Source: a virus
Reading direction: 5' to 3' (one strand)
DNA length: 33,539 nt
Virus record (IMG/VR): IMGVR_UViG_3300032236_000062
Location: 1 to 33,539 of that record
Below, piece by piece: positions 20,460-32,395 of this stretch (the first letter of the stretch is position 1; each line of letters opens with the position of its first letter). The notes beneath the pieces are model-generated. The model was not told where the DNA came from and ran no database searches. It saw only the letters and a list, made by a program, of their open reading frames with translations. The translations under genes and the position numbers were made by a program.

Positions 20460-20605
20460 CCCTTGTAATGTCTCCACTTTTCCAAGAAGTAGGGGTTTTT
20501 TGAAGGTCTAATAAATCCAAAGCGTTCAAATGTTTTCATGATGTTGGTTGCTTCGGGTTTAATCCAAATAAAGCGTTGGGGATCAAGTATTTTTGCAGGT
20601 GTCAT
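20456..20605 (-). CDS. Small convergent phage protein (49 aa)
   Basis: A 49-residue frame from ATG at 20605 to a stop at 20456-20458 that overlaps the endolysin stop on the other strand. AGAGG lies 7 bases before the ATG, and the ATG shares ATGA with the upstream gene's stop. The product is basic and aromatic (FIWIKPEATNIMKTFERFGF). No function is known. Coupling with the gene upstream supports it as the last gene of the leftward operon. Confidence 0.65.
   Translation of the reverse strand: MTPAKILDPQRFIWIKPEATNIMKTFERFGFIRPSKNPYFLEKWRHYKG
20458..20501 (+). terminator. Possible terminator after lysis operon
   Basis: AACCC (20458-20462) can pair with GGGTT (20493-20497) across a 30-base loop, followed by TTTTTT (20496-20501). 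The stem is short and the loop long, so this is weaker than the other two terminators. It lies inside the convergent small gene, where a stop to rightward transcription is expected. Confidence 0.35.
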
Positions 20606-20889
20606 TTAATTACCTCTGCTAATTTAAGTTCGCCTGTTTCGCTATCCCAAATAAATTTAACATTGCATACAGGAGCTTGAGTTTTAATTACGCATTCAGT
20701 TCCTATTTTTAACAAATAAGCATACATAACATCATCAGGCTTTGGTTCAGGCTTAATACGATAAATTAAACGTCTATTCCATGTTGGATCATAAGTGCAA
20801 TCATCCCATGTATCAGTATTTGGATGAAATACTTGAATTTCAGCACCATCAGCCCATGCTTTAATTAAATCTGCGTGTTTATGTTTCAT
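20602..20889 (-). CDS. Conserved early phage protein
   Basis: 95 residues. KHADLIKAWADGAEIQVF at 4-21 and the WNRRLIYRIKPEPKP segment form a very common phage protein family of unknown function found in early regions. There is no membrane segment or catalytic motif. It is coupled by ATGA overlaps to genes on both sides in the leftward operon. Confidence 0.75.
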   Translation of the reverse strand: MKHKHADLIKAWADGAEIQVFHPNTDTWDDCTYDPTWNRRLIYRIKPEPKPDDVMYAYLLKIGTECVIKTQAPVCNVKFIWDSETGELKLAEVIK

Positions 20890-21086
20890 TTTGGTAACGC
20901 TCCTATTACACGATAAATTTTAAATTTCTTGCTTGGATGCCAACGGTCTAGGACTGTATAACCCATCGCACGCAGTTCTCCAACACGAGTTGACAGTTTC
21001 ATACCACCACCTGCGTTTAAAGCGTCTATGGGGCTTATCCAACGCTTACTGGCTAGTTTTACAATTATTTGATGTTGAGTTGCCAT
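20886..21086 (-). CDS. Small winged-helix DNA-binding protein (HTH_39-like)
   Basis: 66 residues: a helix-turn-helix/winged-helix pattern (ISPIDALNAGGGMKLSTRVG, ELRAMGYTVLDRW) as in the small phage HTH_39 family. It probably binds DNA or a host nucleoprotein and may regulate early genes. It ends by ATGA overlap with the next gene. AGGAGAAAATA precedes the ATG on this strand. It has no known partner. Confidence 0.75.
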   Translation of the reverse strand: MATQHQIIVKLASKRWISPIDALNAGGGMKLSTRVGELRAMGYTVLDRWHPSKKFKIYRVIGALPK

Positions 21087-21259
21087 TATTTTCTCCTTGC
21101 TATTCGACAGTCAGCCTTTTCTTGAGGTGTAAAGTCAGGGCTGATTTCTGACAATTCACAGTTTTTAATACCCCAATGCGTTTGTTTTTCAGGCAAGGAA
21201 GTAATAAAAATAACAAAACCACATAAAAACGTAGACATTCCTAGGGCAAATGTTTTCAT
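21086..21259 (-). CDS. Small secreted or membrane-anchored early protein (57 aa)
   Basis: 57 residues from the ATG at 21259, preceded by GAGGGGG. A GTG at 21283 in frame lacks a ribosome-binding site and was rejected. The first ~25 residues are a signal-anchor (FALGMSTFLCGFVIFITSL). The remainder has two Cys and the segment ISPDFTPQEKADCRIARRK, a pattern seen in small phage periplasmic proteins. Function is unknown, possibly envelope-acting. Confidence 0.65.
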   Translation of the reverse strand: MKTFALGMSTFLCGFVIFITSLPEKQTHWGIKNCELSEISPDFTPQEKADCRIARRK

Positions 21260-21342
21260 AGCCCCCTCACCAAGACCCAACACGCTAAGGCTGGGCCAAA
21301 CACTACGATTGCTCCGATAAATGCTTCAATAAATGTTCTCAT
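21256..21342 (-). CDS. Tiny membrane protein (28 aa)
   Basis: A 28-residue frame, ATG at 21342, preceded by AAGGGGG. The stop forms an ATGA overlap with the start of the next gene. The product is one hydrophobic helix (FIGAIVVFGPALACWVLV). Ribosome-binding site, coupling and hydrophobicity support it; the role is unknown. Confidence 0.55.
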   Translation of the reverse strand: MRTFIEAFIGAIVVFGPALACWVLVRGL

Positions 21343-21351
21343 AAAACCCCC

Positions 21352-21651
21352 TTATTTAGAAGTTGTTTTAACGGCAAATACAGCCGTTGTTTTGGTGAAC
21401 TGGGCGACTACATCATCAGCTACATTCAAAGAGGCTAGGAGTGCTTTGTAATCGACTACGGAACGGTTAGACTCAACTACCGTTGATTTGAATAACGCAC
21501 CCTCAAATATTTTTGAACCGTTGGGTGCAGTTGCTTGGTTTTTTAAAGCATCTTTAATCATGTCAGCCTGTTTAGTCAAGTCAGCGATTTGTGCTAATAA
21601 ACCACCGAGTGTATCTACAGTTAATGCGTTGATGTTTGTTATTGCGTTCAT
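21352..21651 (-). CDS. Conserved early phage protein (helical, first gene of operon)
   Basis: 99 residues. The N-terminal helix (TLGGLLAQIADLTKQADMIK, then DALKNQA) may be a coiled coil. The C-terminus is beta-rich with the pattern ESNRSVVDYKALLASLNV and FTKTTAVFAVKTT. Similar proteins precede recombination genes in several phage groups; function is not known to me. AAGGGATAG precedes the ATG. It is the first gene after the leftward promoter at 21693-21721. Confidence 0.7.
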   Translation of the reverse strand: MNAITNINALTVDTLGGLLAQIADLTKQADMIKDALKNQATAPNGSKIFEGALFKSTVVESNRSVVDYKALLASLNVADDVVAQFTKTTAVFAVKTTSK

Positions 21652-21692
21652 TTTTCTATCCCTTTATTTAACACTGCTCATGCAGTAACTAC

Positions 21693-21721
21693 AGAATAAT
21701 TTAGTTTTCTAAAGTATGCAA
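21693..21721 (-). promoter_or_regulatory. Leftward promoter with operator dyad between -35 and -10
   Basis: On the minus strand TTGCAT (21716-21721), 17 bases, TATTCT (21693-21698). The spacer contains the dyad TTTAG-TTTT-CTAAA (21700-21713). The spacer differs by one base from that of the rightward promoter at 25246-25274. It would drive 21651-20456. A protein on the dyad would block RNA polymerase directly. Confidence 0.75.
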
Positions 21722-21732
21722 GCGATATTTAA

Positions 21733-21747
21733 TAGGGACAAACCCTA
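21733..21747. promoter_or_regulatory. Upstream 15-bp dyad (TAGGG-N5-CCCTA)
   Basis: TAGGGACAAACCCTA, a perfect 5-bp inverted repeat 11 bases upstream of the leftward -35 element. A matching element, TAGGGAAACTACCTA, lies at 25221-25235, 10 bases upstream of the other operator promoter. The shared spacing suggests an activator or second repressor site. Confidence 0.5.
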
Positions 21748-21791
21748 AGTGTTGTAAAAAGGGGATGGGTTGTATTTGGCAGTTGCTATCT

Positions 21792-21845
21792 GTTAGGCGG
21801 AAAGCCGTAAAAAACCTAACTTACTGCATCCTACATTGACGGCTT
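21792..21845. ncRNA. H-type pseudoknot-like element in intergenic region
   Basis: GTTAGG (21792-21797), AAGCCGT (21802-21808), CCTAAC (21815-21820) and ACGGCTT (21839-21845) give two interleaved perfect helices of 6 and 7 bp. The connecting segments are CGGA, AAAAAA and 18 nt. GGGG 21761-21764 and CCCC 21850-21853 could close an outer stem. It lies between a leftward terminator and a leftward promoter, so neither flanking operon obviously transcribes it. The strand is undetermined. Confidence 0.4.
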
Positions 21846-21855
21846 AACACCCCAT

Positions 21856-21880
21856 AAAAAAAGGGATACCGAAGTATCCC
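21856..21880 (-). terminator. Intrinsic terminator of the exonuclease operon
   Basis: On the minus strand GGGATAC, loop TTCG, GTATCCC, then TTTTTTT: a perfect 7-bp stem with a C(UUCG)G tetraloop and a U tract. It ends leftward transcription 26 bases after the exonuclease stop and separates the two leftward operons. Confidence 0.93.
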
Positions 21881-21905
21881 GAACTCACGTTGAAGTCAGA
21901 TTCAA

Positions 21906-22652
21906 TTATAAACCATTCTTGATCTGATACACCCTGAGTAAGTGTTCAAAACATTCCCATCCTTTTTGCAAGGCAAGGTCTTCGATTTCAATCAATTTTA
22001 CTTCATTGGTTGTACCGTTAATAAAGACAATAGCGCATCTTGCGCTGGGCATACCTAAGCCCTCACGATACGCTGCTAATTGCATTTCCATTTCAAAGTA
22101 CACATCGACCTTATCTAATGCCGTATCTTTGGTCTTAAAGTCCACCACGATGCCATTAGGACACATCAGGTCGCATTTACCACCATAACCAAAGGCATGA
22201 GCAAAAGACTTCTCTGCTATCCAATGACGGTCACCAAAAGCATCATACAAAGCCTTTTCTACGTTGCCTAAATACAACGGTGGTTCAATGTGATACGAAC
22301 CCTCGAAATGGGCTTGGACTATAGCGTGAATTTTAACTCCTCTTTCAGCCGCATCCCTTCCAGTAGCCTTTGAATCGGACATCACTCGCTTAAGCCAGTC
22401 TTCTTCAGGCTCATTAGGTAGTCTAGGCAAGGTTAGCGCAGCTAATAAGACTTGTTGCTGAAGCCACGAGTTAAGCCCTGCCTTAGCCAAGAGCGAGTTT
22501 ATGGTGGTAACGCTAGGCAATAACCCAAGTTTGCGAGCATCCCTGAGTGTTGTATTGCGTTCAGCACCATTAGCACCAATCATCGTATAGTAAGGCTCAC
22601 CAGTTTTTGTATACCAATGGCCTCCTTCCGTTAGTTTTTCTTTAACTATCAT
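21906..22652 (-). CDS. PD-(D/E)XK exonuclease (RecB/Cas4-like)
   Basis: 248 residues. Nuclease motifs appear in order: G-x-x-x-H at 105-109 (RGVKIHA), Glu147, Asp161 in GGKCDL, DFK at 171-173 (VVDFKTK) and Q-x-x-x-Y at 191-195 (QLAAY). This is the RecB/Cas4/lambda-exonuclease-like metal-dependent fold. It probably processes DNA ends for phage recombination with the ssDNA-binding-like protein two genes upstream. The start overlaps the preceding gene by 11 bases. A terminator follows the stop. Confidence 0.88.
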   Translation of the reverse strand: MIVKEKLTEGGHWYTKTGEPYYTMIGANGAERNTTLRDARKLGLLPSVTTINSLLAKAGLNSWLQQQVLLAALTLPRLPNEPEEDWLKRVMSDSKATGRDAAERGVKIHAIVQAHFEGSYHIEPPLYLGNVEKALYDAFGDRHWIAEKSFAHAFGYGGKCDLMCPNGIVVDFKTKDTALDKVDVYFEMEMQLAAYREGLGMPSARCAIVFINGTTNEVKLIEIEDLALQKGWECFEHLLRVYQIKNGL

Positions 22653-22839
22653 TTTTTTCTCTTGCTTTCATCATTTTGTCAGCCAATAAGTATGATGTTT
22701 TAAATGTTTCTAAAGCATCAAACTGTTCGTCTTTTATTAAATTAAGTTGTACTTCTGCAAATCGAATAGCAAAGTAATCTCTTAAATCCATGCCTCGATA
22801 TTCTTCAGCTTGAATATATCCACTTGGAAATGCTTTCAT
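22642..22839 (-). CDS. Small conserved early protein
   Basis: 65 residues with the phrase GMDLRDYFAIRF at 16-27, common in small early phage proteins, followed by a Leu/Lys-rich helix with TSYLLADKMMKAREK. No catalytic motif is seen. Position between ssDNA-binding-like and exonuclease genes suggests an accessory role in recombination. AAGGAGC precedes the ATG. Confidence 0.68.
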   Translation of the reverse strand: MKAFPSGYIQAEEYRGMDLRDYFAIRFAEVQLNLIKDEQFDALETFKTSYLLADKMMKAREKNDS

Positions 22840-22848
22840 ATTAGCTCC

Positions 22849-23472
22849 TTAAAATGGGACATCGGGTTCATCACTAGGAAAATCAGCTAATGTCTTGGGA
22901 AATGGGTCTTCTTTCTTCTTGCCACCCCTGTACTCAGACGATTCCATAATCTTTTCTTTGTAGTATTTAGGTAGGTTCTCGAACTTATCCTGATCCCAGT
23001 CTTGCAACCAAAAATGATTAACTGGATTAATTCCTTGTGGTACTACGTTTTTGAGAGCTGACGGAATAGGGCTAATGCCAGCAATATTAGCGTACTTACC
23101 GTCCTCGCTATGACTGATATTCACCATACAAAACTTGTCTAGTAAGGTCTTCATATCAAAGTTCTTACGGTCTTCTGCTGACATCTTTTTATTAGCCCAA
23201 GATTCTAAGTCCTTACGCAAGGTTGCTTGGTCACCAAGACTGACTGTATAGCGTTTAGATACGATTAATGGCTTACCATCATCGGTCTTGAGTGGTTTAC
23301 CCTCGTTATCATCACCATGCAGTTCAAAGGTCAGTACAACCTTGTGCATGATCTTGGTTTCACCTGACCATTCGACTGACTGGTGACCTAAGTCAATAAT
23401 CGAGTACAAACGTGCCATATGTAACCCAGCAGGGGCTATCTTAAAATCTTTTTGTGTGTCGGTAATAATCAT
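22849..23472 (-). CDS. Phage ssDNA-binding-like replication/recombination protein
   Basis: 207 residues. It has a beta-rich body (KVVLTFELHGDDNEGKPLKT, GKPLIVSKRYTVSLGD) matching a phage family annotated as ssDNA-binding or replication proteins. It ends in an acidic tail closing with DEPDVPF, resembling the hydrophobic-tipped tail of SSB proteins that recruits partners. Located two genes before the exonuclease, it probably coats single strands. No separate annealing protein (Erf, RecT, Sak) was recognised, so this protein might also cover that need. It overlaps the upstream gene by 4 bases. Confidence 0.75.
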   Translation of the reverse strand: MIITDTQKDFKIAPAGLHMARLYSIIDLGHQSVEWSGETKIMHKVVLTFELHGDDNEGKPLKTDDGKPLIVSKRYTVSLGDQATLRKDLESWANKKMSAEDRKNFDMKTLLDKFCMVNISHSEDGKYANIAGISPIPSALKNVVPQGINPVNHFWLQDWDQDKFENLPKYYKEKIMESSEYRGGKKKEDPFPKTLADFPSDEPDVPF

Positions 23473-23708
23473 TTTCTTTCTCCAAATTGAGTTGCTTTAT
23501 CAAAGCGTGTAAATGCGTCACCAATATCCTTAAACACATCGGATAGGTATTTTTTGTTGTAATTGATTCTTGGTAATCCACAGCCATAACGAAGCAAATC
23601 TATCTGTTCGTTATCTAATGCTGCGCCATCAAGCAGATGGTCGAAGATGTCTTCTAATTGTCTTTCAAGTTGATGCTGGTCATTCATTTGCTGTTCTTGC
23701 TCACTCAT
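23469..23708 (-). CDS. Early protein, first gene of exonuclease operon (hypothetical)
   Basis: 79 residues, acidic and helical (LERQLEDIFDHLLDGAALDN, then YLSDVFKDIGDAFTRFD). No recognisable domain. AGGAGA lies 8 bases before the ATG, and its end overlaps the ssDNA-binding-like gene. It is the promoter-proximal gene of the leftward operon from 23749-23777. Confidence 0.65.
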   Translation of the reverse strand: MSEQEQQMNDQHQLERQLEDIFDHLLDGAALDNEQIDLLRYGCGLPRINYNKKYLSDVFKDIGDAFTRFDKATQFGERK

Positions 23709-23748
23709 TTGAGTTTCTCCTATTTAACACGTCACATGACGTACAAAC

Positions 23749-23777
23749 AGATTAACTTATCTAAAGTGATTTGTCAA
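23749..23777 (-). promoter_or_regulatory. Strong leftward promoter with operator
   Basis: On the minus strand TTGACA (consensus -35, 23772-23777), 17 bases, TAATCT (23749-23754). The spacer and -10 overlap an operator-like sequence TTAAC-TTAT-CTAAA (plus strand 23752-23765). It would drive 23708-21906, and sits back-to-back with the regulator's promoter. Confidence 0.8.
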
Positions 23778-23782
23778 CAGTC

Positions 23783-23811
23783 TTGTAAAATATATTTAAA
23801 TCTGTTAAGAT
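23783..23811 (+). promoter_or_regulatory. Regulator promoter; leaderless transcript likely
   Basis: TTGTAA (23783-23788), 17 bases, TAAGAT (23806-23811) preceded by TG at -15 (extended -10). The start point would fall at about 23818-23819, the A of the ATG, and no Shine-Dalgarno precedes it. A half-match to the operator (TTAAG-ATAA at 23805-23813) overlaps the -10, consistent with autoregulation. Confidence 0.6.
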
Positions 23812-23818
23812 AATTGTT

Positions 23819-24055
23819 ATGGACACATTAAAACTTACTCACGATCAGTTAATAAATATTTTAGGCGGTACTAAAAACGTGGCTAAGATGGCTAAGGTTA
23901 GTCAGGCTGCGGTTACTCACTGGCGAACAACCGACATTCCTGAAGGTCAGATGATTAGGTTAGCTGCCGAATTAGAAAAAAAATCGCATGGATTAATTAC
24001 TCGCAAGGGTTTATTTCCAACAACTTATAAAATGATATGGCCTGAATTAGAATGA
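23819..24055 (+). CDS. Cro/CI-like helix-turn-helix regulator
   Basis: 78 residues. LINILGGTKNVAKMAKVSQA then AVTHWRTTDIPEGQ (about 10-43) is a Cro/YdaS-type helix-turn-helix with the recognition helix near SQAAVTHWR. There is no cleavage or oligomerisation domain, so it is Cro-like rather than a full CI. It is the likely ligand of the dyads found in four promoter regions. It is transcribed divergently from the exonuclease operon and overlaps the next gene by 4 bases (ATGA). Confidence 0.82.
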   Translation: MDTLKLTHDQLINILGGTKNVAKMAKVSQAAVTHWRTTDIPEGQMIRLAAELEKKSHGLITRKGLFPTTYKMIWPELE

Positions 24056-24822
24056 AACCACATATTGTAGCTTTTGGTGGTGGTGTAGATAGTACGGCTA
24101 TGATTTTAGGTCTTTATGAACAAAAACGACCAATTGATTTAATACTTTTTGCTGATACTGGCGGAGAACGACCCGAAACATATCAACATATTAAAAACTT
24201 TAGTAATTGGTTAACAAACAAAGGTTTACCTGAAATTACTATTGTTAAAAAAGTGCTTAAAGATGGAAGTTTAGAAACACTTGAACAAGAATGTCATAGA
24301 AGGCACAATTTACCATCTATTGCGTATGGATTTAAATCTTGTTCACAAAAACACAAAATAGCCCCACAAGATAAATTTTTAAACCATTGGCAACCAGCTA
24401 TTGATTGGTGGAAAACAGGCGATAAATGTGTTAAATACATTGGTTATGATGCTGGAGAGTCCCATAGAGCTGACAACGCAGATAAACGTAATGATCCCAA
24501 ATATACTTATGAGTACCCATTAATAGAATGGCAATGGGAAAGAGAAGATTGTTTAGATATTATTGCAAAATACAATATAAATAATGTAGGTAAATCAGCG
24601 TGTTTTTTTTGTCCTTCATCACGACCAAAAGAAATTGTTGATTTATATGAAAAACATCCTGATTTAGCACAAAGAGCTTTGGACATTGAAAAACAAGCAG
24701 AGTTAACTAGCATAAAAGGTTTAGGTAGAAATTATGCGTGGTCAGATGTAATTATGATGCACAAACAACAAATAATTTTACCTTTTGTTGGTTTTGATGC
24801 ACCTTGCGAGTGTACAGAATAA
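24052..24822 (+). CDS. PP-loop enzyme, PAPS-reductase / DndC-like family
   Basis: 256 residues. PP-loop GGGVDS at 9-14 binds ATP. LFADTGGERPETY at 32-44 and a CSQKHKIAP segment with Cys97 follow, then GYDAGESHRA at 131-140 and CFFC at 184-187. The fold is that of PAPS reductase and the DNA-phosphorothioation protein DndC. The cysteines could hold an iron-sulfur cluster or relay sulfur. True PAPS reductases end with a different Cys motif, so simple sulfate reduction is doubtful. Translated with the regulator by ATGA overlap, which is unusual for a metabolic gene. The substrate is unknown. Confidence 0.8.
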   Translation: MKPHIVAFGGGVDSTAMILGLYEQKRPIDLILFADTGGERPETYQHIKNFSNWLTNKGLPEITIVKKVLKDGSLETLEQECHRRHNLPSIAYGFKSCSQKHKIAPQDKFLNHWQPAIDWWKTGDKCVKYIGYDAGESHRADNADKRNDPKYTYEYPLIEWQWEREDCLDIIAKYNINNVGKSACFFCPSSRPKEIVDLYEKHPDLAQRALDIEKQAELTSIKGLGRNYAWSDVIMMHKQQIILPFVGFDAPCECTE

Positions 24823-24837
24823 AAATTCTGTTATACT
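24814..24837 (+). promoter_or_regulatory. Extended -10 promoter and inverted repeat for candidate RNA
   Basis: TGTTATACT (24829-24837) is an extended -10 element with no clear -35. It overlaps a perfect inverted repeat, ACAGAAT-AAAA-ATTCTGT (24814-24831), that spans the stop codon of the PP-loop gene. Transcription would start near 24843-24845. Confidence 0.55.
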
Positions 24838-24842
24838 ACTTA

Positions 24843-24972
24843 TGCAGAGTGAGATCTGTTTGTTAAAAAGTTCAGTAAATATAGACCCTTTTGGGTTGTT
24901 CTGAGTGTTTACTAAATGAACTGAACCATTTATTAAGCAATCTCACCTTAGAGCAACCCAAAGGGGTTTTTC
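24843..24972 (+). ncRNA. Candidate structured phage RNA ending in a terminator
   Basis: CCCTTTTGGGTTGTTCT (24886-24902) pairs with AGAGCAACCCAAAGGGG (24950-24966) as a 17-bp helix with two G-U pairs, followed by TTTTT (24967-24971). The 47-nt enclosed segment has its own hairpin, TAAATG (24913-24918) with CATTTA (24927-24932). Two further helices compete or interleave: GTGAGAT (24849-24855) with ATCTCAC (24940-24946), and GTTCAGT (24870-24876) with ACTGAAC (24920-24926). An extended -10 promoter lies upstream and no ORF is present. It is either a discrete regulatory RNA or a leader that switches termination. Confidence 0.6.
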
Positions 24973-25220
24973 TATTTCTGTCGTACTCCAAACGATATTA
25001 AGAACCTACATGGGTTGCGTGGAAGTAAACATAGGCTAATCCTTCACCCGATTGCAAGCCTCGTGAACTTAAATGGGTATCACACAAGATATAGGGACAA
25101 CGGTGAGACAAGACCTATATTCGATTGAACATTATCTTCGGAAGCATTAGTTTAGGTTCAACTACTTAAATGGATGGAGGCTAATCACCCTTGGGGTATC
25201 TATTCTTAAAATTAATGTAT
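24973..25220. other. Gene-free region with repeats and hairpins
   Basis: No convincing coding frame on either strand. It holds two copies of ACTTAAATGG (25067-25076, 25164-25173), two of GGCTAATC (25034-25041, 25179-25186), an ATATAGG...CCTATAT inverted repeat around 25090-25120, and a TTGAAC...GTTCAA pair enclosing CTTCGGAAG (about 25124-25162). A half copy of the upstream dyad (TAGGGACAA) is at 25092-25100. It could be a second structured RNA, a replication origin or a decayed insert; I cannot tell which. Confidence 0.4.
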
Positions 25221-25274
25221 TAGGGAAACTACCTATAAAAAAGAGTTGATTACTTTAGAAAACTAAACTATACT
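25221..25274 (+). promoter_or_regulatory. Rightward early promoter with two dyads
   Basis: TTGATT (25246-25251), 17 bases, TATACT (25269-25274). The spacer contains the perfect dyad TTTAG-AAAA-CTAAA (25254-25267). Ten bases upstream of the -35 lies TAGGGAAACTACCTA (25221-25235). Both elements and their spacing match the leftward promoter at 21693-21747. It would drive the replication/recombination operon from 25305 onward. Confidence 0.8.
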
Positions 25275-25304
25275 GTCTTTACTTAAACAGAAAGTGAGAT
25301 AGAA

Positions 25305-25466
25305 ATGAACGATAAAGAACTAATCAAAATGCTAGAAGAAGAATGTGAAGCATTAAGAAGACAATTAAGAGACTGCCATTTATACATGACAGATACTCAA
25401 AAATGGAAAATGGCTCGTGATAACGCTAATATTCAATACGATATTAGAGTTGAAAGGTGCGACTAA
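25305..25466 (+). CDS. Small coiled-coil early protein (53 aa)
   Basis: 53 residues from the ATG at 25305 to TAA 25464-25466. The helical N-terminus (ELIKMLEEECEALRRQLRDC) is a likely coiled coil. It is the first gene after the operator promoter. The upstream GTGAGATAG is a moderate ribosome-binding site. The stop overlaps the next ATG (TAATG). Function unknown. Confidence 0.65.
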   Translation: MNDKELIKMLEEECEALRRQLRDCHLYMTDTQKWKMARDNANIQYDIRVERCD

Positions 25467-25699
25467 TGGACATCATTAATATTTTAGATGCTTCAGAAAA
25501 AGCCATCGCTACGCTGATGTTAGAAGTTAATCGCTTAAACAATGAAATTAAATTAAAAGATGAACAACTAGAAGCGTTAAAAAAAGAACTGGCATTGCAA
25601 AAACTATCTGATATTGGTCAAGAGATTGAAGACCGAGACTCTGCTATATACGCTACTGGTTATTGGAATGGTATTTCTAAGAAAGCGAGTGAAAAATGA
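25466..25699 (+). CDS. Small coiled-coil early protein (77 aa)
   Basis: 77 residues from the ATG at 25466. An in-frame GTG at 25457 was rejected because the ATG is coupled to the preceding stop and has AAAGG at 9 bases. It is mostly one long heptad helix (LMLEVNRLNNEIKLKDEQLE, ALKKELALQK) and ends YWNGISKKASEK. The last six residues equal the end of the next protein. Function unknown. Confidence 0.65.
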   Translation: MDIINILDASEKAIATLMLEVNRLNNEIKLKDEQLEALKKELALQKLSDIGQEIEDRDSAIYATGYWNGISKKASEK

Positions 25700-25701
25700 C
25701 T
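25679..25701 (+). repeat. Gene-junction direct repeat, copy 1 (second copy 25864-25886)
   Basis: A perfect 23-bp direct repeat at 25679-25701 and 25864-25886. Each copy carries the last codons of one gene (KKASEK), its TGA, the overlapping ATG of the next gene and that gene's ribosome-binding site (AGCGAG region). The gene between the copies (25696-25884) is thus a precise cassette bounded by identical translation junctions, as expected from recombination or duplication. Confidence 0.85.
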
Positions 25702-25884
25702 AGTTTTGTACCATATGGAACATTAACTTTTTGTAAAAATTGTGGCGAACAAAATCCTTATCATCGTGAACTAACTGATGAGGAAATAGAAGAAGTGGCA
25801 AAACCATATTGTGATTTACAAAATTGGGTTGTTGATAAACATGAATTTGCAAGAGCAATACTAAAGAAAGCGAGTGAAAAATGA
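25696..25884 (+). CDS. Small protein with Cys pair, between repeat junctions
   Basis: 62 residues. LTFCKNCGEQNPYHREL contains C-x-x-C at 13-16, a possible zinc knuckle. LTDEEIEEVAKPYCDLQNWV and FARAILKKASEK follow, a pattern common in small phage proteins. Both ends lie in the 23-bp direct repeat, so it may have been gained as a cassette or be lost by recombination. Function unknown. Confidence 0.65.
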   Translation: MTSFVPYGTLTFCKNCGEQNPYHRELTDEEIEEVAKPYCDLQNWVVDKHEFARAILKKASEK

Positions 25885-26261
25885 CTTTTGATATATTTTG
25901 GAGTAAATATCCTCGTAAGATTGCTAAACGCATGGCTCGTGAAGTTTTTAACCGTATGCCTAAAGAAGATCAAGAGATGGCATTAAAGGCCATAGACACC
26001 CACGTTAAACATTGGAACGTAGAAGGTACAGAAATACAGTTTATACCCCACGCAACGACTTGGTTACGTCAGGGCAGGTTTGAAGATGAAATTGTTTTGC
26101 AAGTGGTTAAGGGTAAAGAATGGCACGAAACGTCAACAGGTCTAATTGAAAAAGGTCGGGAGTTTAATCTTGACCCCAGTCAGTTTCAACACTTTTATCA
26201 GTTTAAAGAGGCCGTACATCAAGCTGTTAAAGGTAATGTTATTAATGTTAAGTTTGGGTAA
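25881..26261 (+). CDS. Replication-organiser-like protein (phage O-type C-terminal domain)
   Basis: 126 residues. It opens with FDIFWSKYPRKIAKRMARE, the F-x-x-F/W-x-x-Y-P-x-K signature of phage replisome-organiser proteins (lambda O or DnaD-like relatives). HATTWLRQGRFEDE at about 53-66 follows, also typical. It probably helps bring host replication enzymes to the phage origin. It is short and lacks a clear origin-binding domain. The origin may be in the gene-free region upstream. Confidence 0.72.
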   Translation: MTFDIFWSKYPRKIAKRMAREVFNRMPKEDQEMALKAIDTHVKHWNVEGTEIQFIPHATTWLRQGRFEDEIVLQVVKGKEWHETSTGLIEKGREFNLDPSQFQHFYQFKEAVHQAVKGNVINVKFG

Positions 26262-26837
26262 ATGATGATTGCTGTTCTTTTTGCTAGAAATGACAGCAGA
26301 TACAAAGATATGCCTGAATTTGATGTTTATGACATTAATCGTGATGCTAGAACGTATTGTGATTCATATCCTGTAATTGCTCATCCACCTTGCAGGGCTT
26401 GGGGAATACTTAGTCATATGGCTAACCCAAGAGAAGGTGAAAAACAATTAGCTTATTTATCATTAGCGCAAGTACGGCTTAACGGTGGAATATTAGAACA
26501 TCCAGTTACTAGCCGTTTATGGAAAGATGCAAAATTGCCTTTGATGGATGAGTTTTCTGATGAATACGGTGGTTTTACTATAGAAATTGATCAATATGAT
26601 TATGGTCATGTGGCCCATAAAATGACTAAATTATATATTTGTGGGATAACACCATCAGATTTACCCCCCTTTCCACAAAAGCGGTTAGAAACACCATTAA
26701 GGTCAATATGTGGAAATGTTAAAGGGACTATTAGATGTACCCAATATCAGCGTGAATACACACCCGATGATTTAATATTTTTTTTTAAACAAATATGCGA
26801 GAAAATAAATGAACGAAAAAGACTACGATCCTCATGA
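26262..26837 (+). CDS. PPC-motif protein, methyltransferase-related (uncertain)
   Basis: 191 residues. IAHPPCRAWG at 39-48 resembles the catalytic PPC motif IV of cytosine-5 DNA methyltransferases. NGGILEHPVTSRLWKDA recalls the next conserved strand. There is no visible SAM-binding F-x-G-x-G motif, and the N-terminus VLFARNDSRYKD is not the usual opening. It may be a degenerate methyltransferase or an enzyme sharing the fold, for instance acting on another base. ATG-ATG at 26262/26265. The C-terminus overlaps the next gene by 29 bases. Confidence 0.6.
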   Translation: MMIAVLFARNDSRYKDMPEFDVYDINRDARTYCDSYPVIAHPPCRAWGILSHMANPREGEKQLAYLSLAQVRLNGGILEHPVTSRLWKDAKLPLMDEFSDEYGGFTIEIDQYDYGHVAHKMTKLYICGITPSDLPPFPQKRLETPLRSICGNVKGTIRCTQYQREYTPDDLIFFFKQICEKINERKRLRSS

Positions 26838-27144
26838 TGCGATTAATTTTATTTATACGCACAAAGACGCGTATGCTAAAGCCAAAGGTCAATTAGCCCA
26901 GTTAGAAGCGTTTAAATCATCGTTAAAAGCGATTCAAATGCAACAGAGTACACAGACATCCATATCAGGTAAAGAAATGGATGCGTACGCTTCTGAAGAA
27001 TATCAGGCACTATGCAACGGTATAGGCGCAGCTACTGAACAGGTTGAATCGTTACGTTGGGCATTGGAGTCTGCTAAGATGCGCTTTCAGGCATGGCAAA
27101 CAGAATCGGCTAACAATCGTCAGATTGAAAAATTTACAATATGA
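26809..27144 (+). CDS. Conserved early phage protein next to Ref/RusA
   Basis: 111 residues, helical. The centre and end, AYASEEYQALCNGIGAATEQ then VESLRWALESAKMRFQAWQ and NNRQ, are a widespread phage pattern. The family nearly always sits next to Ref or RusA nuclease genes, so it may assist recombination or DNA processing. ATGA overlap with the Ref gene. Confidence 0.75.
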   Translation: MNEKDYDPHDAINFIYTHKDAYAKAKGQLAQLEAFKSSLKAIQMQQSTQTSISGKEMDAYASEEYQALCNGIGAATEQVESLRWALESAKMRFQAWQTESANNRQIEKFTI

Positions 27145-27440
27145 AGAAAGCAGAAAAACAATATTATGGAAAAGTTGCACGACTGGGATGTATTTTGTGT
27201 AAATCCGTACTTGGCTACGATGATACGCCATGTGAAATCCATCATATCAGACGGTATGGAGGAAAAAGAAGTTTCGCACCAGTTATCGGATTATGCCCTG
27301 AACACCACAGGGGAGATACTGGTATTCACACACTTGGCAAGCGATTCGAATCTCGCTATGGAGTTGACGAGCAAGCCTTACTTGAACTTACATGGAAGCT
27401 CTTAAATGTTGACCCTGAGTTGGTATCCGAAGGAACTTAA
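27141..27440 (+). CDS. Ref-family HNH nuclease (recombination enhancement)
   Basis: 99 residues. Metal ligands Cys17 and Cys20 (GCILC), the double His34-His35 in CEIHHIRR, and CPEHH at 52-56 match the Ref family of HNH endonucleases (P1 Ref cuts at RecA-formed displacement loops). The N-terminal basic tail is short. It likely makes targeted breaks during phage recombination together with the exonuclease and RusA. Start is fixed by ATGA overlap; its end overlaps RusA by 35 bases. Confidence 0.85.
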   Translation: MKKAEKQYYGKVARLGCILCKSVLGYDDTPCEIHHIRRYGGKRSFAPVIGLCPEHHRGDTGIHTLGKRFESRYGVDEQALLELTWKLLNVDPELVSEGT

Positions 27441-27735
27441 CCCTAATTCATCGTGCCATTACCATGTAAAAGCCAAACACAAAGCGATTTACAAAGAACT
27501 GTGCTACTGGCTCACCAAAGAAGCGAAGATACCTAAAGACGATTACAAAGAACTGCATATCGTCTTTTATAAGCCAAATCGCAGGCACATGGACTTAGAT
27601 AATATGCTTGCCAGCATCAAATCAGGGTTAGATGGTATGTGTCAAGCCCTTGAAATTGATGACAGGTGTTTTAAAAAAATAACCGTAGAAATTGCAGAAA
27701 ACATTGGAGGGATGATTAAAATTCATTTATACTAA
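27406..27735 (+). CDS. rusA: RusA-type Holliday-junction resolvase
   Basis: 109 residues, typical RusA length. HMDLDNMLASIKSGLDG at 61-77 holds the catalytic acidic pair D63/D65 with N66 and Lys72. ALEIDD at 81-86 holds the distal aspartates. It resolves four-way junctions made during replication and recombination, and debranches DNA before packaging. Starts inside the Ref gene with GGAAG 7 bases upstream. Confidence 0.9.
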   Translation: MLTLSWYPKELNPNSSCHYHVKAKHKAIYKELCYWLTKEAKIPKDDYKELHIVFYKPNRRHMDLDNMLASIKSGLDGMCQALEIDDRCFKKITVEIAENIGGMIKIHLY

Positions 27736-27755
27736 GGGTTAAATAGGAGATTTTT

Positions 27756-28118
27756 ATGGAAAAATCGATGGCATTATTTCTTGCCACCCTGCTACATTCG
27801 GGGACAAATACCCATTTTATGCATTGGGCTACGAAATCTTATGCACAACATAAAACTCTTGGTAAATTCTATGAAAATATTATTGAACTTACAGATACTT
27901 TGGCAGAGGCTTATTTCGGATGCTATGGGCAAATTACTAATTTTCCTGATTCTTATCATATGCCTAAAGGTACATCACTTAGTTACTTAGAATCCTTACA
28001 ACGGTTTGTTAAGGATGCTAGACAAGATTTACCTACAGAATCCGAAATTGTGCAACTTATCGACAACATCGCACAAGAAATTGATACAACAATTTACTTA
28101 CTCAAATTTAAGGGTTAA
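27756..28118 (+). CDS. Ferritin-like helical protein (DUF5856-type)
   Basis: 120 residues, all helical. LFLATLLHSGTNTHFMHWAT, SYAQHKTLGKFY and ELTDTLAEAYFG match DUF5856, a phage family predicted to be ferritin/Dps-like. His and Glu residues spaced along the helices could bind metal, but a complete diiron set is not evident. TAGGAGA lies upstream. Its role in infection is unknown, perhaps DNA protection. Confidence 0.78.
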   Translation: MEKSMALFLATLLHSGTNTHFMHWATKSYAQHKTLGKFYENIIELTDTLAEAYFGCYGQITNFPDSYHMPKGTSLSYLESLQRFVKDARQDLPTESEIVQLIDNIAQEIDTTIYLLKFKG

Positions 28119-28120
28119 TC

Positions 28121-28351
28121 ATGCCATTAGTTAAATCAGCCAGTCCTAAAGCAGTTGGAACTAACATCAAAACTGAAGAAATGGCTGGTAAGCCACATAA
28201 TCAGGCAGTAGCGATTGCCTTGAGTGTGCAAGATAAGGCCAAACAACGCAAGAGTACGATTGAAGCTGCTTACAAAAAGCACATGAAGTCTAGCGAAGAA
28301 GTTGGCGAAACTAAAAAAGAATCCAAAAAAACTGAGATGGAGGAAATGTAA
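28121..28351 (+). CDS. Small basic conserved phage protein
   Basis: 76 residues. GTNIKTEEMAGKPHNQAVAI, then ALS, is a very common motif in small late phage proteins. The C-terminal half is Lys/Glu-rich and unstructured. Members sit near packaging genes; some may be virion proteins. Function unknown. The stop overlaps the next ATG (TAATG). Confidence 0.8.
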   Translation: MPLVKSASPKAVGTNIKTEEMAGKPHNQAVAIALSVQDKAKQRKSTIEAAYKKHMKSSEEVGETKKESKKTEMEEM

Positions 28352-28524
28352 TGTCAAACTGGATCGCTGGTGCAATTAAACATAAAGGCGCACTTAAAAA
28401 AGAGTTAGGTGTTCCTGCTGACAAAACTATTCCAAAAGCTAAGTTAGAAAAAGCTGCTGAGGCTAAAGGTCGTGAAGGTCGCAGAGCAAGATTAGCCTTA
28501 GAGCTAGAAAAGTTCCACAAATGA
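28351..28524 (+). CDS. Small basic conserved phage protein (57 aa)
   Basis: 57 residues from ATG 28351 to TGA 28522-28524. MSNWIAGAIKHKGALKKELG and AKLEKAAEAKGREGRRARLA form a familiar phage micro-protein family found beside DUF6321 proteins near packaging genes. Strongly basic, so it may bind DNA or sit inside the capsid. GGAGG 7 bases before the ATG; the end overlaps the next gene. Confidence 0.8.
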   Translation: MSNWIAGAIKHKGALKKELGVPADKTIPKAKLEKAAEAKGREGRRARLALELEKFHK

Positions 28525-28808
28525 GTCGGCAAGATGACATTCGTGCAGCAATAGAAAAACATGATAAACCTATTGCAAAGACCACGACTGGCAAAGGTAA
28601 GAACTATTTACCGACAAGCGAAGGTGCTGGCATGACTGCTAAAGGTCGTGCAGCATACAACGCTAAGAATGGTAGTCATTTAAAAGCACCACAAGCATCA
28701 GGATCAAGACACGATAGTTTCTGCGCTAGGATGAAGGGGGTTGTTGAACATTCTAAGGGTGATGCGCCAAGAGCAAAAGCAAGTTTAAAGAGGTGGCATT
28801 GTGGCTAA
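28521..28808 (+). CDS. DUF6321 family phage protein
   Basis: 95 residues. The family signature GAGMTAKGRAAYNAKNGSHL is followed by KAPQASGSRHDSFCARMKG and a basic end (ASLKRWHCG). DUF6321 proteins are small, basic and found near terminase or virion genes; their role is unknown. ATGA overlap at the start; the next gene begins inside the last codons. Confidence 0.82.
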   Translation: MSRQDDIRAAIEKHDKPIAKTTTGKGKNYLPTSEGAGMTAKGRAAYNAKNGSHLKAPQASGSRHDSFCARMKGVVEHSKGDAPRAKASLKRWHCG

Positions 28809-28986
28809 AAACGGATTATACGCAAATATTCATGCTAAACAAGAACGGATTAAAAACGGTTCAGGCGAGCATATGAACAAGGTTGGTAGCAAAAATGCCC
28901 CAACTGCTAAAGACTTTAAAGAATCTGCTAAGACTGCTAAAAAGACTAGGCGAGATCACATTGAAGACGCTATGAAAGGATACTAA
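28801..28986 (+). CDS. Small basic conserved phage protein (GTG start)
   Basis: 61 residues starting at GTG 28801, with AGAGG 8 bases upstream, overlapping the DUF6321 gene. KNGLYANIHAKQERIKNGSG and KNAPTAKDFKESAKTA are hallmarks of a widespread family of small phage proteins accompanying DUF6321. Function unknown. The stop and next ATG overlap by one base. Confidence 0.78.
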   Translation: MAKNGLYANIHAKQERIKNGSGEHMNKVGSKNAPTAKDFKESAKTAKKTRRDHIEDAMKGY

Positions 28987-29135
28987 TGGAACACATGAAC
29001 CGCAAGTACAAAAAAGAAGACGCAATGTTGCGCCCTCATACAGAAACTACCTTAGAAAAGCAACAAAGACTACGTTTAGAGCGTAGAGCTGCTATTGCTA
29101 ATAAACTCAAAGACTTGGATAAAGAAGTCAAGTAA
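28986..29135 (+). CDS. Small basic protein (49 aa)
   Basis: 49 residues from ATG 28986 to TAA 29133-29135. Very basic, with a likely helix (TLEKQQRLRLERRAAIANKL). No known family recognised. TAATG coupling with the gene upstream and a two-base gap to the gene downstream support translation. Confidence 0.62.
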   Translation: MEHMNRKYKKEDAMLRPHTETTLEKQQRLRLERRAAIANKLKDLDKEVK

Positions 29136-29137
29136 TT

Positions 29138-30487
29138 GTGGCAGAAAATCAAACCTTAGCAGATTTATTGCGTCAAAAAGCGCAATCTGTAATTGATTTT
29201 CCTACTAATGTAGCTCGTAATTTGAGCGATCCACAAGCATTTTTAAAATCTTTTGGATACACACCTAGTCAGCAACTAAGTGGATTTAGCGCAGGATATG
29301 CTGGAGTACCTGAAAAACCACCATCAGATATTGGTGTACTTGATCCTAGAAACATTGAATACAACAAAGGTTATGGATCGGGTGAAGATGCTGCATTAGC
29401 AACAATGGTTGCAGCTCCATTTGCGCCATTAGCCAAGCCTATAGCGAAGGCTGCTGGAAGACAGGCATGGAACGCAACAGAAAACATGATGATTAATCAA
29501 GGTTTAATGCCTAGCATTGTTCCTAGAAATGAATCATTAGCAAATGCTTTAAGAAATACAAAAACTGCTGAATTTGACCCTCGTTATGATACCCGAAAAT
29601 TAGAGCAGGAAAGATTAAAAAATTTAATAACCCATACTGAACAACTTAATTTAAATCCTATACCATCCGTATCGTTAGCTGATTTTGAAGGAAGGCCATT
29701 TATTACATCTATGGCAGATAGAACTGCGGCAGGTGCTGATTTACTTGGTGTAAACGGTGTAATGTATAAACGACCTGTGCCATTGTATGGTGGACAAGAT
29801 TATATGTTTAATAACCCAAATCAAGTATGGGCTTCTGCACAAAGCGCAGTAACACCAATTATTCAAAATGCTAAGATATTAAAAGAAGCTACAGGTCAAA
29901 ATCCTATTTATATCCCTTGGCGAATGGCTCCTACTGGTGGCGATTTTGCACATATGACAGGTGAAAGCATGATTGCTCATGCAGAAGCTGCAATGGGTAA
30001 ATCAGATAAAACAGCATTAAATAACTCTATTAAAGAATTATTGCCTAGTTGGAAAGGTGTAGATTCGCCACAAAACATTTCTCAATATCGTTCAGCACCT
30101 AAAAAAGTTCGTGATGCAATCATGCAAGTAATGGATAGAGATTTTAGAGACTTAGGCGGCTTAAACTACGGTGAAGCTAGAATTGCCGTATCTGATCCTC
30201 GCCAGTTAAATGCTATGGAAGGCGGTATACAAAATGTGGGCGAAATATTTGCTGATAAACCCATGATTATGCATTCAGGCCATCCTTCATATCCTAGAGG
30301 TGTAGCAGGACAAGGATTAGGCAGATTAGAAGAAAATAGAAACATATTTGAATTATTGCCTAATGTGGCAAAAGAACGTGGAATAGTAAATCCAACTAAT
30401 CCATCGGCTAATGATTTAAGAGCATTACAGATGAAGCCATATGCTGGCATATTGACACCAAAACTTTTAAAAGATTTAGGTTATTAA
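29138..30487 (+). CDS. Conserved protein upstream of terminase (hypothetical)
   Basis: 449 residues from GTG 29138. The start ADLLRQKAQSVIDFPTNVAR and the segment GYGSGEDAALATMVAAPFAP (about 75-94) resemble polyvalent or internal-type phage proteins carried next to packaging genes. The C-terminal half contains GGLNYGEARIAVSDPRQLNA and MIMHSGHPSYPRG. No catalytic signature is recognised. It may be injected or virion-associated. Its end overlaps the antisense gene at 30484-30669 by 4 bases. The Shine-Dalgarno is weak, so coupling to the gene before it is probable. Confidence 0.65.
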   Translation: MAENQTLADLLRQKAQSVIDFPTNVARNLSDPQAFLKSFGYTPSQQLSGFSAGYAGVPEKPPSDIGVLDPRNIEYNKGYGSGEDAALATMVAAPFAPLAKPIAKAAGRQAWNATENMMINQGLMPSIVPRNESLANALRNTKTAEFDPRYDTRKLEQERLKNLITHTEQLNLNPIPSVSLADFEGRPFITSMADRTAAGADLLGVNGVMYKRPVPLYGGQDYMFNNPNQVWASAQSAVTPIIQNAKILKEATGQNPIYIPWRMAPTGGDFAHMTGESMIAHAEAAMGKSDKTALNNSIKELLPSWKGVDSPQNISQYRSAPKKVRDAIMQVMDRDFRDLGGLNYGEARIAVSDPRQLNAMEGGIQNVGEIFADKPMIMHSGHPSYPRGVAGQGLGRLEENRNIFELLPNVAKERGIVNPTNPSANDLRALQMKPYAGILTPKLLKDLGY

Positions 30488-30669
30488 TACAAATATTCAG
30501 GTTTAAATTGTTTTGCCATAGATTGATTAAATCGTTTAGTTAAAAATTCATTAACCATATCGATTGTTACTAATGTGATATTACTAGCTAGACAATACGT
30601 TTCAAATAAAGTTAAAGCATTTAACATTCTTTTTGGCATTTTGATATCAACATTTACAATAGGCTTCAT
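30484..30669 (-). CDS. Small antisense gene between late operons (61 aa)
   Basis: 61 residues on the minus strand, convergent with the 449-residue gene and divergent from terminase. AAGGAGA lies 6 bases before the ATG, and a perfect -10 (TATAAT) precedes it. KMPKRMLNALTLFETYCLAS suggests a helical, possibly ribbon-helix-helix-like protein. It has its own promoter with an operator-type dyad. It may regulate the packaging operon or act as a superinfection factor; this is inference. Confidence 0.65.
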   Translation of the reverse strand: MKPIVNVDIKMPKRMLNALTLFETYCLASNITLVTIDMVNEFLTKRFNQSMAKQFKPEYLY

Positions 30670-30694
30670 GACAATCTCCTTATTTTGTAATACA

Positions 30695-30721
30695 ATTATA
30701 CCAATAATTAAGTTATCTTAA
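30695..30721 (-). promoter_or_regulatory. Divergent promoter region with fourth operator dyad
   Basis: TATAAT on the minus strand (30695-30700), with a weak -35, and the dyad TTAAG-TTAT-CTTAA (30708-30721). The dyad has the same 5-4-5 structure as the early operators. It lies between the antisense gene and small terminase, so it could control either. No strong rightward promoter is visible here. Confidence 0.6.
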
Positions 30722-30740
30722 CTAACAACTTGGAAAAGAT

Positions 30741-31037
30741 ATGGAAAAAAAAGTATCGAAATCTGTTGGCAACTTAAATAGGGCAGGTAGACCAGCAGGA
30801 ATACCTAATAAATCAACAACTATGGCTCGTGAGGCTATTGCTCGTTTTGTTGATGGTAACTCAGACAAATTACAGGGTTGGCTTGATGAAATAGCTGCTA
30901 ATGAAAAGCTAGGCCCTAAAGTTGCATTTGATTGCTTTATGCAAGTAGCTGAGTACCATGTGCCTAAACTCGCTAGGGTTGAACAAGTAGGCGATGTTGA
31001 AAAACCTGTGGTGCATATATTTAAATGGAAGGATTAG
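30741..31037 (+). CDS. Terminase small subunit
   Basis: 98 residues. NRAGRPAGIPNKSTTMAREA at 13-32 is the GRPxGxPNK motif frequent in small terminase and related DNA-binding phage proteins, followed by AIARFVDGNSDKLQGWLDEI and a helical region that would oligomerise. It recognises phage DNA and loads the large subunit. It overlaps the large terminase gene by 13 bases. Confidence 0.8.
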   Translation: MEKKVSKSVGNLNRAGRPAGIPNKSTTMAREAIARFVDGNSDKLQGWLDEIAANEKLGPKVAFDCFMQVAEYHVPKLARVEQVGDVEKPVVHIFKWKD

Positions 31038-32395
31038 TCGAGGTTGTCCATGAGTTTGATTACAAAGCTCGTGACGCTTTCTTAGACTTTCATTATCGCA
31101 AGGAACGCTGGGCAGTATTAGTATGTCACAGACGTGCAGGAAAGACCGTAGCAACGATTTGCGACATTATCCGTAGGGCAATCAGCGAAAACAAACCAAA
31201 TGGCAGATACGCTTATATTGCGCCTTATTACGCTCAGGCTAAAAACATCGCTTGGGACTATCTTTTAAGGTTTGCTGAACCTGCTATCGCTAAGGCTAAC
31301 CAGTCTGAGTTATGGATTGAACTCATTAATGGGGCGAAGATTCGGTTATTTGGTGCAGACAATCCTGATAATCTTAGGGGTTTATACCTAGACGGTGTAG
31401 TCTTAGATGAATACGCTGATATGAAACCTCGTATATGGGGTGAGATTGTACGACCGTTACTAACCGATAGAAACGGTTTAAATGGCTATGAGACATGGGC
31501 GGTGTTTATTGGTACACCAAAGGGTCATAACGCTTTCTACGACATTTATAACGAGGCTCAGAAGAATCCTAACTGGTATACGAAGGTCTTGCGAGCGGAT
31601 CAATCAGGTTTATTACCTGCGAGTGAGTTGTTGGATGCCCAGCAATCCATGTCTGCCAATCAATATGAACAGGAGTTCTTAGTATCATTCGAGGCTTCCA
31701 TAACAGGCGCATTTTATGGGCAGGAGATGCGTAGGATTACTGACCTTAATCGTATTACAGATGTTGAGTACGACCCAATGTTTCCCTGTCATACTGCGTG
31801 GGACTTGGGCTTCAATGATAGTACAAGTATTCTTTGGTGGCAAGTAGTTTTTGGTGAGATTAGAATCCTCGACCATCACAGTTCAAACGGTCAGGCTATT
31901 GCTTATTACACAGGTTTGATTAAGCAAAAAGAAGAAGAATTTGGGTACAAATATGGCACTCATTGGCTACCTCATGACGCTAGGGCAAAAACACTAGCAA
32001 GTAACGGAAAGAGCATAATTGAGCAAATTTCTGCAAAAATTGACATAAAACATCTAAAAATCGTACCAAATCTGTCATTACAGGACGGAATCCAAGCAAC
32101 AAGACTTGCATTAACTCGCTGTTGGTTCGATAATAAGACAGAAGAACTTATTGAATGTTTGCGTCAATATCAGAGGGAATGGGATGATGATAAAAAAGTA
32201 TTTAGGGATCGCCCGAAACACGATTGGACAAGCCATTCAGCAGACGCAATGCGCTATCTCAGCGTTGTTTGGCAAGATGAAGACACTCCTATCCTCAAAG
32301 ATGCAAGAATTAAAGGACTTCATGTCGGGGAAACAGACGTAACACTTAATGAATTATGGACTCAAACACCAAAACAAACCTTTAGGAGAATCTAA
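31025..32395 (+). CDS. Terminase large subunit
   Basis: 456 residues. The ATPase has Walker A CHRRAGKT at 34-41, Walker B GVVLDEYA (DE at 128-129) and motif III GTPKGHN at 163-169. The nuclease domain has AWDLGFNDST with D260, HD at 317-318 and DWTSHSADAMRYL at 400-412. It pumps DNA into the capsid through the portal and cuts it. It starts inside the small subunit gene. The order small-large-spacer-portal is standard. Confidence 0.95.
   Translation: MEGLVEVVHEFDYKARDAFLDFHYRKERWAVLVCHRRAGKTVATICDIIRRAISENKPNGRYAYIAPYYAQAKNIAWDYLLRFAEPAIAKANQSELWIELINGAKIRLFGADNPDNLRGLYLDGVVLDEYADMKPRIWGEIVRPLLTDRNGLNGYETWAVFIGTPKGHNAFYDIYNEAQKNPNWYTKVLRADQSGLLPASELLDAQQSMSANQYEQEFLVSFEASITGAFYGQEMRRITDLNRITDVEYDPMFPCHTAWDLGFNDSTSILWWQVVFGEIRILDHHSSNGQAIAYYTGLIKQKEEEFGYKYGTHWLPHDARAKTLASNGKSIIEQISAKIDIKHLKIVPNLSLQDGIQATRLALTRCWFDNKTEELIECLRQYQREWDDDKKVFRDRPKHDWTSHSADAMRYLSVVWQDEDTPILKDARIKGLHVGETDVTLNELWTQTPKQTFRRI

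Follow-up and report, generated by a model that had tools for sequence, protein, structure and literature searches.

We will consider the early regulation of a freshwater phage, IMG/VR virus record IMGVR_UViG_3300032236_000062, which was analysed over its whole length of 33,539 nucleotides (nt), called here the window. It codes for a Cro-like protein of 78 amino acids (aa), which very probably switches off three early promoters, A, L and R, through one matching site in each of them. The sites, their positions in the promoters, their conservation in related phages, their dependence on the presence of the regulator and their covariation with its recognition helix are all directly seen. It appears likely that they form a Cro-type negative regulon of a single specificity, autoregulated, which would shut three early operons with neither CI nor integrase.

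Proposed operators in the early promoters

A sequence-only reading of the window had proposed a family of four dyads of 14 base pairs (bp), at 21700, 23752, 25254 and 30708. All four are present there (Table 1). Three of them are perfect and the sites at 21700 and 25254 are exact reverse complements of one another; the site at 23752 has one mismatch, a C in its left arm where the family has a G. The strict pattern, TTWAG-N4-CTWAA, is found four times in the window, against 0.36 +/- 0.59 in 100 dinucleotide shuffles, none of which reaches four. Three of these matches (21700, 25254 and 30708) fall within the intergenic 6.6% of the window. The other one, at 13385, is inside a gene and had not been noticed before; we reject it as a coding coincidence.

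This excess is limited to the strict pattern. When one mismatch is allowed there are 13 matches against 10.9 in the shuffles, so that the site at 23752 and the half-site at 23805 could not be defended from the window alone; we nonetheless credit both because they are conserved in relatives. A matrix trained on the sites of the relatives ranks 30708, 25254 and 21700 first to third, followed by the coding match, with 23752 only ninth. Its training sites had been picked by the pattern, and therefore we have set this ranking aside and rely on synteny.

Table 1. Regulatory elements and genes of the window
Feature	Position	Strand	Sequence	Remarks
99-aa gene	21352..21651	-		Under promoter A; homologues at the same place in relatives
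Hairpin after promoter A	21673..21686	-	ACTGC-N4-GCAGT	Begins 6 nt after the -10; predicted mRNA 5' end
Promoter A	21693..21721	-	TTGCAT-17-TATTCT	Hexamers verified
Operator O_A	21700..21713	-	TTTAG-N4-CTAAA	In spacer of promoter A; syntenic in relatives
Leftward early operon	21906..23708	-		From promoter L; 79-aa, 207-aa, 65-aa and exonuclease-like genes
Hairpin after promoter L	23729..23742	-	ACGTC-N4-GACGT	Starts 6 nt downstream of the -10; relatives show compensatory changes
Promoter L	23749..23777	-	TTGACA-17-TAATCT	Divergent from regulator; hexamers verified
Operator O_L	23752..23765	-	TTAAC-TTAT-CTAAA	One-mismatch member; in spacer of promoter L, also overlaps its -10
Regulator promoter	23783..23811	+	TTGTAA-17-TAAGAT	mRNA predicted to be leaderless, with the ATG about 8 nt past the -10
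Half-site O_reg	23805..23818	+	TTAAG-ATAA	Overlaps -10 and predicted start
78-aa regulator	23819..24055	+		Cro/YdaS-like; proposed ligand of all sites; recognition helix S-QAAVTHWR
Promoter R	25246..25274	+	TTGATT-17-TATACT	Hexamers verified
Operator O_R	25254..25267	+	TTTAG-AAAA-CTAAA	In spacer of promoter R
Hairpin after promoter R	25281..25295	+	ACTT-N7-AAGT	6 nt after the -10
Rightward early operon	25305..27735	+		From promoter R; replication-like and RusA-like genes
61-aa gene	30484..30669	-		Occasional cassette; 12 loci, some on the same contig
-10 of 61-aa gene	30695..30700	-	TATAAT	
-10-like element of terS	30703..30708	+	AATAAT	TANAAT in relatives
Operator-like element O_ter	30708..30721	+	TTAAG-TTAT-CTTAA	Overlaps -10 and predicted terS start
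Putative terS	30741..31037	+		By position, upstream of and overlapping terL; weak PHROG matches only

Promoters A, L and R are, from their sequence, ordinary sigma70-like promoters, and in all three we confirm the -35 and -10 elements at 17-bp spacing with a site between them, as had been claimed. Promoters were read by eye (automatic picking of the two elements mis-assigned several A promoters), and those of the window were checked separately.

Relatives were gathered by scans with the regulator (21 loci) and with the neighbouring 207-aa protein (80 loci); at most of these loci the regulator is divergent from a leftward operon. Here the dyad is found again at A (21700), L (23752) and R (25254), and it is syntenic in nearly every record with a complete early region. 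We have compared O_L in 56 distinct divergent regions: the dyad is strict in 43 and has one mismatch in 10, and in 52 of the 56 it starts 66–72 bp before the start codon of the regulator. Throughout the relatives the arms are fixed and the centre is variable. The strict dyad is present in 21 of the 22 larger records, mostly three to five times in each, while the pattern read backwards gives three matches in total. When 20 relatives are pooled, the 98 kb outside open reading frames (ORFs) of at least 90 codons hold 58 sites and the 474 kb within such ORFs hold 11, an odds ratio of 25 (p 9e-34); the backwards control has two matches. The sites also depend on the presence of the regulator: in eight phages that share a related terminase or 207-aa gene, and in which no regulator was detected, the pattern matches three times in total, at scattered places. 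Matches similar to TTAAGCAAWCTAAA are found about 5–6 kb after terL in relatives; we have judged them to be coding (K-Q-x-K in frame) and not operators. Their counterpart in the window, at 4266, reads VKQSK.

A partial site is found at the promoter of the regulator itself. The half-match proposed at 23805 (TTAAGATAA), which overlaps the -10 (TAAGAT, 23806–23811), turned out to be a conserved element: in 53 of 57 relatives GTTAAGAT stands a few bases at most before the start codon. Counting from the sequences, 37 of those 53 have a full dyad with no more than one mismatch, and the second arm (CTTA-) is present in most phages of the VSMWQ clade. O_reg is probably an autoregulatory element. The R promoters of four relatives (L107, L121, L211 and L219) also have a start codon about 6–8 nt after the -10, with predicted leaderless mRNAs.

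The regulator and the arms of its proposed operators

The 78-aa protein is a relative rather than a member of two families: it scores 27.5 bits with P22_Cro (PF14549; gathering cut-off 30.2, E 2.7e-6) and 28.0 bits with YdaS (PF15943, YdaS_toxin; cut-off 30, E 2e-6). Its PHROG match is to transcription regulators. The AlphaFold model, with a predicted local distance difference test (pLDDT) of 91, is predicted to have the helix-turn-helix (HTH) fold of the Cro/lambda-repressor group; the nearest solved folds are Xylella Xfaso1 Cro, YdaS of CP-933P and P22 Cro (Foldseek E 0.03–0.2, template modelling score near 0.5). As expected of a Cro-type system, the putative palindromic operators overlap early promoters A, L and R both in the window and in its relatives. 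The protein at 23819 had been named as the ligand of the sites; with one operator family inside the early promoters this is well supported as likely, and we consider it the putative ligand. A search of bacterial genomes with the regulator gave two contigs from metagenome bins only, which do not indicate the host. Contigs L225 and L226, binned as Nitrosotalea and Spartobacteria, carry a related phage regulator; they are likely to be phage contigs in the bins.

The arms of the operators change with the recognition helix. Phages with the helix QAAVTHWR invariably have TTTAG arms at A and R, and at L one or both arms are TTTAG; those with V[PA]AVSMWQ have TTAAG arms at every half-site that was read. 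Two phages from Manatee Spring, with a regulator 47–48% identical and different neighbours (erf, SSB), have the helix P[PA]AVSQW and mixed arms; their sites at A and R are strict, as is the L site of one of them, and the divergent region of the other has two partial sites. The regulators of three further loci (L244, L245 and L246) have the helix APPAV[TA]QWR, and no strict sites are found there at A, L and R.

Taken alone, this association could be explained by shared ancestry. The strongest evidence that regulator and sites evolve as one system is a natural swap. Two contigs from different metagenomes, L107 and L121, are 90–100% identical over most of the left flank and about 99–100% identical just to the right of O_R; strong divergence is confined to the segment from O_L through the regulator to O_R. 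O_A is 1.7 kb outside this exchanged segment, and both of its arms have been switched from TTTAG to TTAAG. Around O_A the two contigs are nearly identical, with almost all differences inside the promoter-operator core. The same switch is seen in three TTTAG contigs and several TTAAG contigs, so it is not due to one chimera.

From these sequences we infer a model of dimerisation, binding, repression, order of occupancy and timing in infection, which may be described as follows. The early promoters would be open when the phage enters. The 78-aa HTH protein, made from a leaderless mRNA, would presumably dimerise and bind the P22-type 14-bp dyad, TTWAG/TTAAG-N4-CTWAA/CTTAA. Because one copy of the operator lies between the -35 and the -10 of A, L and R, binding would exclude RNA polymerase. 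As it accumulates, the regulator would fill the full operators and shut the early operons; the partial site on its own -10 would be filled later and limit its synthesis, while the weaker element at the putative terS might be reached after all the others, or only when the dose is high.

Some points weigh against such a regulon. The arm at 23752 is mismatched in the window and in its closest relatives. A third branch of the regulator (G023, G028 and G031) is found without strict early sites; two of its members, G023 and G031, retain TTAAGATAACTT at the start of the regulator itself. There is also a resemblance between the TTTAG and TTAAG arms and AT-rich promoter spacers, in which, however, dyads would not be expected. 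Finally, the association of helix and operator is perfect, yet few independent changes stand behind it.

The element before terS and other readings of the sites

The site at 30708 differs from the others. It does stand beside a perfect TATAAT, on the minus strand (30700–30695), and had been taken to control an antisense gene next to terminase. This is not supported in that form: the 61-aa gene is found at 12 loci only, and the element is nearly universal. It is present as TTAANNTATCTTAA in 56 of 60 relatives, whether or not they have the 61-aa gene, and some relatives without this gene have the homologue of 28986–29135 directly before the element, so that a regulated antisense gene is not general. 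The region 29138–30669 looks like a cassette, with a 449-aa gene and the 61-aa gene placed between a 49-aa gene and terS; it is absent in relatives such as L129 and L138.

In 56 of 59 anchored cases the element is 18–20 nt before the start codon. The predicted start of transcription falls within it, because a TANAAT -10 directly precedes it. The right arm is nearly invariant; the left arm is TTAAC in 43 relatives, TTAAT in 12 and TTAAG in 3, and for this reason we rate the element either as a weak operator or as a distinct element of a late promoter or of packaging. It is quite possible, if somewhat short of probable, that it is a late-promoter or terminase-recognition (pac/cos) element which merely resembles an operator. 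Its high conservation, its fixed distance from the start codon and the absence of G in the left arm are consistent with this, as is a conserved block near ACTTGG that the terS leaders carry before the start codon, downstream of the element (30722–30740 in the window); also, no such element is found in the two Manatee Spring phages. On the other hand its right half, TATCTTAA, is identical to the half-site of the regulator, and both arms are perfect in the window and in two relatives (L183 and L186).

The swap of specificity could also be read in another way: the protein might be the only immunity (CI-like) repressor of the phage, which would keep all early promoters silent in a dormant state, such as a carrier or plasmid-like one, and would give immunity to co-infecting relatives, the two types of arms being two immunity specificities. 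We find this rather unlikely. The exchange of the segment from O_L to O_R in L107 and L121, with the distant O_A changed to match, speaks for it, and heteroimmune lambdoid phages show a comparable pattern of exchange. There are also full sites at all three early promoters, and the mRNA of the regulator is predicted to be leaderless. The mRNA of lambda cI is leaderless (PMC8630535). An exchange of specificity would imply selection by resident or co-infecting relatives, and hence a dormant or carrier state. Against this, the protein is similar to Cro and YdaS and too short for the C-terminal domain of CI. Searches of the window and of 26 relatives, many of whose records are fragments, revealed no tyrosine integrase, no serine recombinase and no ParA-type ATPase; there is no match to PF00589 or PF00239, and the integrase of P22 was detected as a positive control. 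That freshwater phages devoid of integrase carry a one-protein immunity, a Cro-like repressor with single dispersed operators and at least two specificities, swapped between otherwise nearly identical phages with matching changes in a distant operator, is a doubtful, though conceivable, proposal.

A further reading would make the 78-aa protein incidental, the sites being those of a regulator of the host or an intrinsic element of promoters that the host RNA polymerase reads; this is very improbable. In its favour, the sites are always inside sigma70-like promoters, and the element at terS is conserved despite its degenerate arm. Against it, the position of the site differs with the class of promoter (spacer, own -10 or start site), the arms switch with the regulator in nearly identical DNA, terminase relatives without the regulator also lack the set of sites, and the arms match the operators of P22.

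Known systems, gene layout and significance

The Cro-type regulon which we favour is closest to P22. Its operators OL1 (ATTTAAGACTTCTTAATT) and OR3 (AGTTAAGTCATCTTAAAT) carry the same dyad, TTAAG-N4-CTTAA, and a scan of the entire P22 genome with the strict pattern finds only these two annotated operators. This P22-type core is also found among our sites, with the TTTAG variant at A and R of the window. P22 Cro is 32% identical to the window protein and shares S-x-x-AV-x-x-W in the recognition helix; in P22 divergent early promoters are repressed, as we propose for the window. However, P22 has three operators clustered at each of two promoters and shared by c2 and Cro, whereas the window has one operator at each of three dispersed promoters and one protein, and no c2-like gene or integrase was found.

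YdaS, from the E. coli prophage CP-933P, is the best sequence match among solved structures, with a similar fold and a shared C-terminal tail, L-P-x-x-x-x-I/L-IWPE. It is an autoregulated divergent repressor, analogous to Cro, and the consensus half of its operator, GTTTAGTAA, contains TTTAG (PMC8630535). It differs by its 18-bp palindromes, four in one region, which it has in common with the CI-like PaaR2, and by the CII-like YdaT after it; no partners of PaaR2 or YdaT type are seen in the window. The Cro of Acinetobacter phage Ab1656-2 is 44% identical to the window protein. It, too, is an HTH regulator in divergent orientation, and its intergenic region carries TTAGG-N4-CCTAA, a dyad of 14-bp spacing. 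It has another arm base, the helix PPSVSGWK and an adjoining LexA/CI-type repressor and CII. In the Cro region of an Acinetobacter phage (L229, 2396–2415) we also observe TTAGG-N4-CCTAA dyads, with the same spacing and a different arm. In phage P1 a single repressor, C1, has single operators scattered over the genome; its sites are asymmetric and the protein is unrelated to the window regulator. Nor does the system look like a lambdoid CI/Cro lysogeny switch: no CI-type gene is found among the scanned early-region genes, and the divergent genes are early genes of DNA metabolism.

The early promoters have a second common feature. In relatives, the L promoter is followed by a hairpin with a 5-bp stem and a 4-nt loop, 6 bases after the -10 and at a constant distance from the operator. 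In an alignment of 12 distinct sequences all 60 pair cells are standard, and three of the five pairs have changed on both sides. A hairpin of similar form follows the A and most R promoters at this distance too. If a transcript starts some 7 nt downstream of the -10, its 5' end would lie within the stem, and the hairpins are probably 5'-terminal mRNA stem-loops, whose role would likely be mRNA stabilisation; a literature search on stabilisation by 5' hairpins found nothing. A second inverted repeat, approximately TAGGG-N5-CCCTA, is found upstream of many A and R promoters (about 21732–21748 and 25225–25240 in the window).

The window is probably a complete genome, since its ends are an exact direct terminal repeat of 123 bp (1–123 and 33417–33539). 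By TerL its nearest named relatives are Pelagibacter and Methylophilales phages, with about 43% identity. It has long noncoding stretches at 24823–25245 and 21714–21905; the first one contains a terminator-like AACCC-AAAG-GGGTT followed by TTT, at 24955. An Rfam search of 20400–31100 gave no match above gathering.

Cro-like repressors with P22-type operators are already known. In limited literature searches with partial coverage we have found no report of a dispersed regulon with one operator per promoter, under a single Cro-like protein, in phages without integrase and with natural swaps of specificity. The regulation of genes in uncultured phages of this terminase group is hardly known, and here the sequence by itself yields a probable repressor, its operators and three target operons. 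If the swaps reflect immunity, an immunity state may exist in phages that are deemed strictly lytic because they lack an integrase. In any case the natural exchanges of helix and operator are a ready-made specificity experiment, and the pairing of regulator and site is directly testable.

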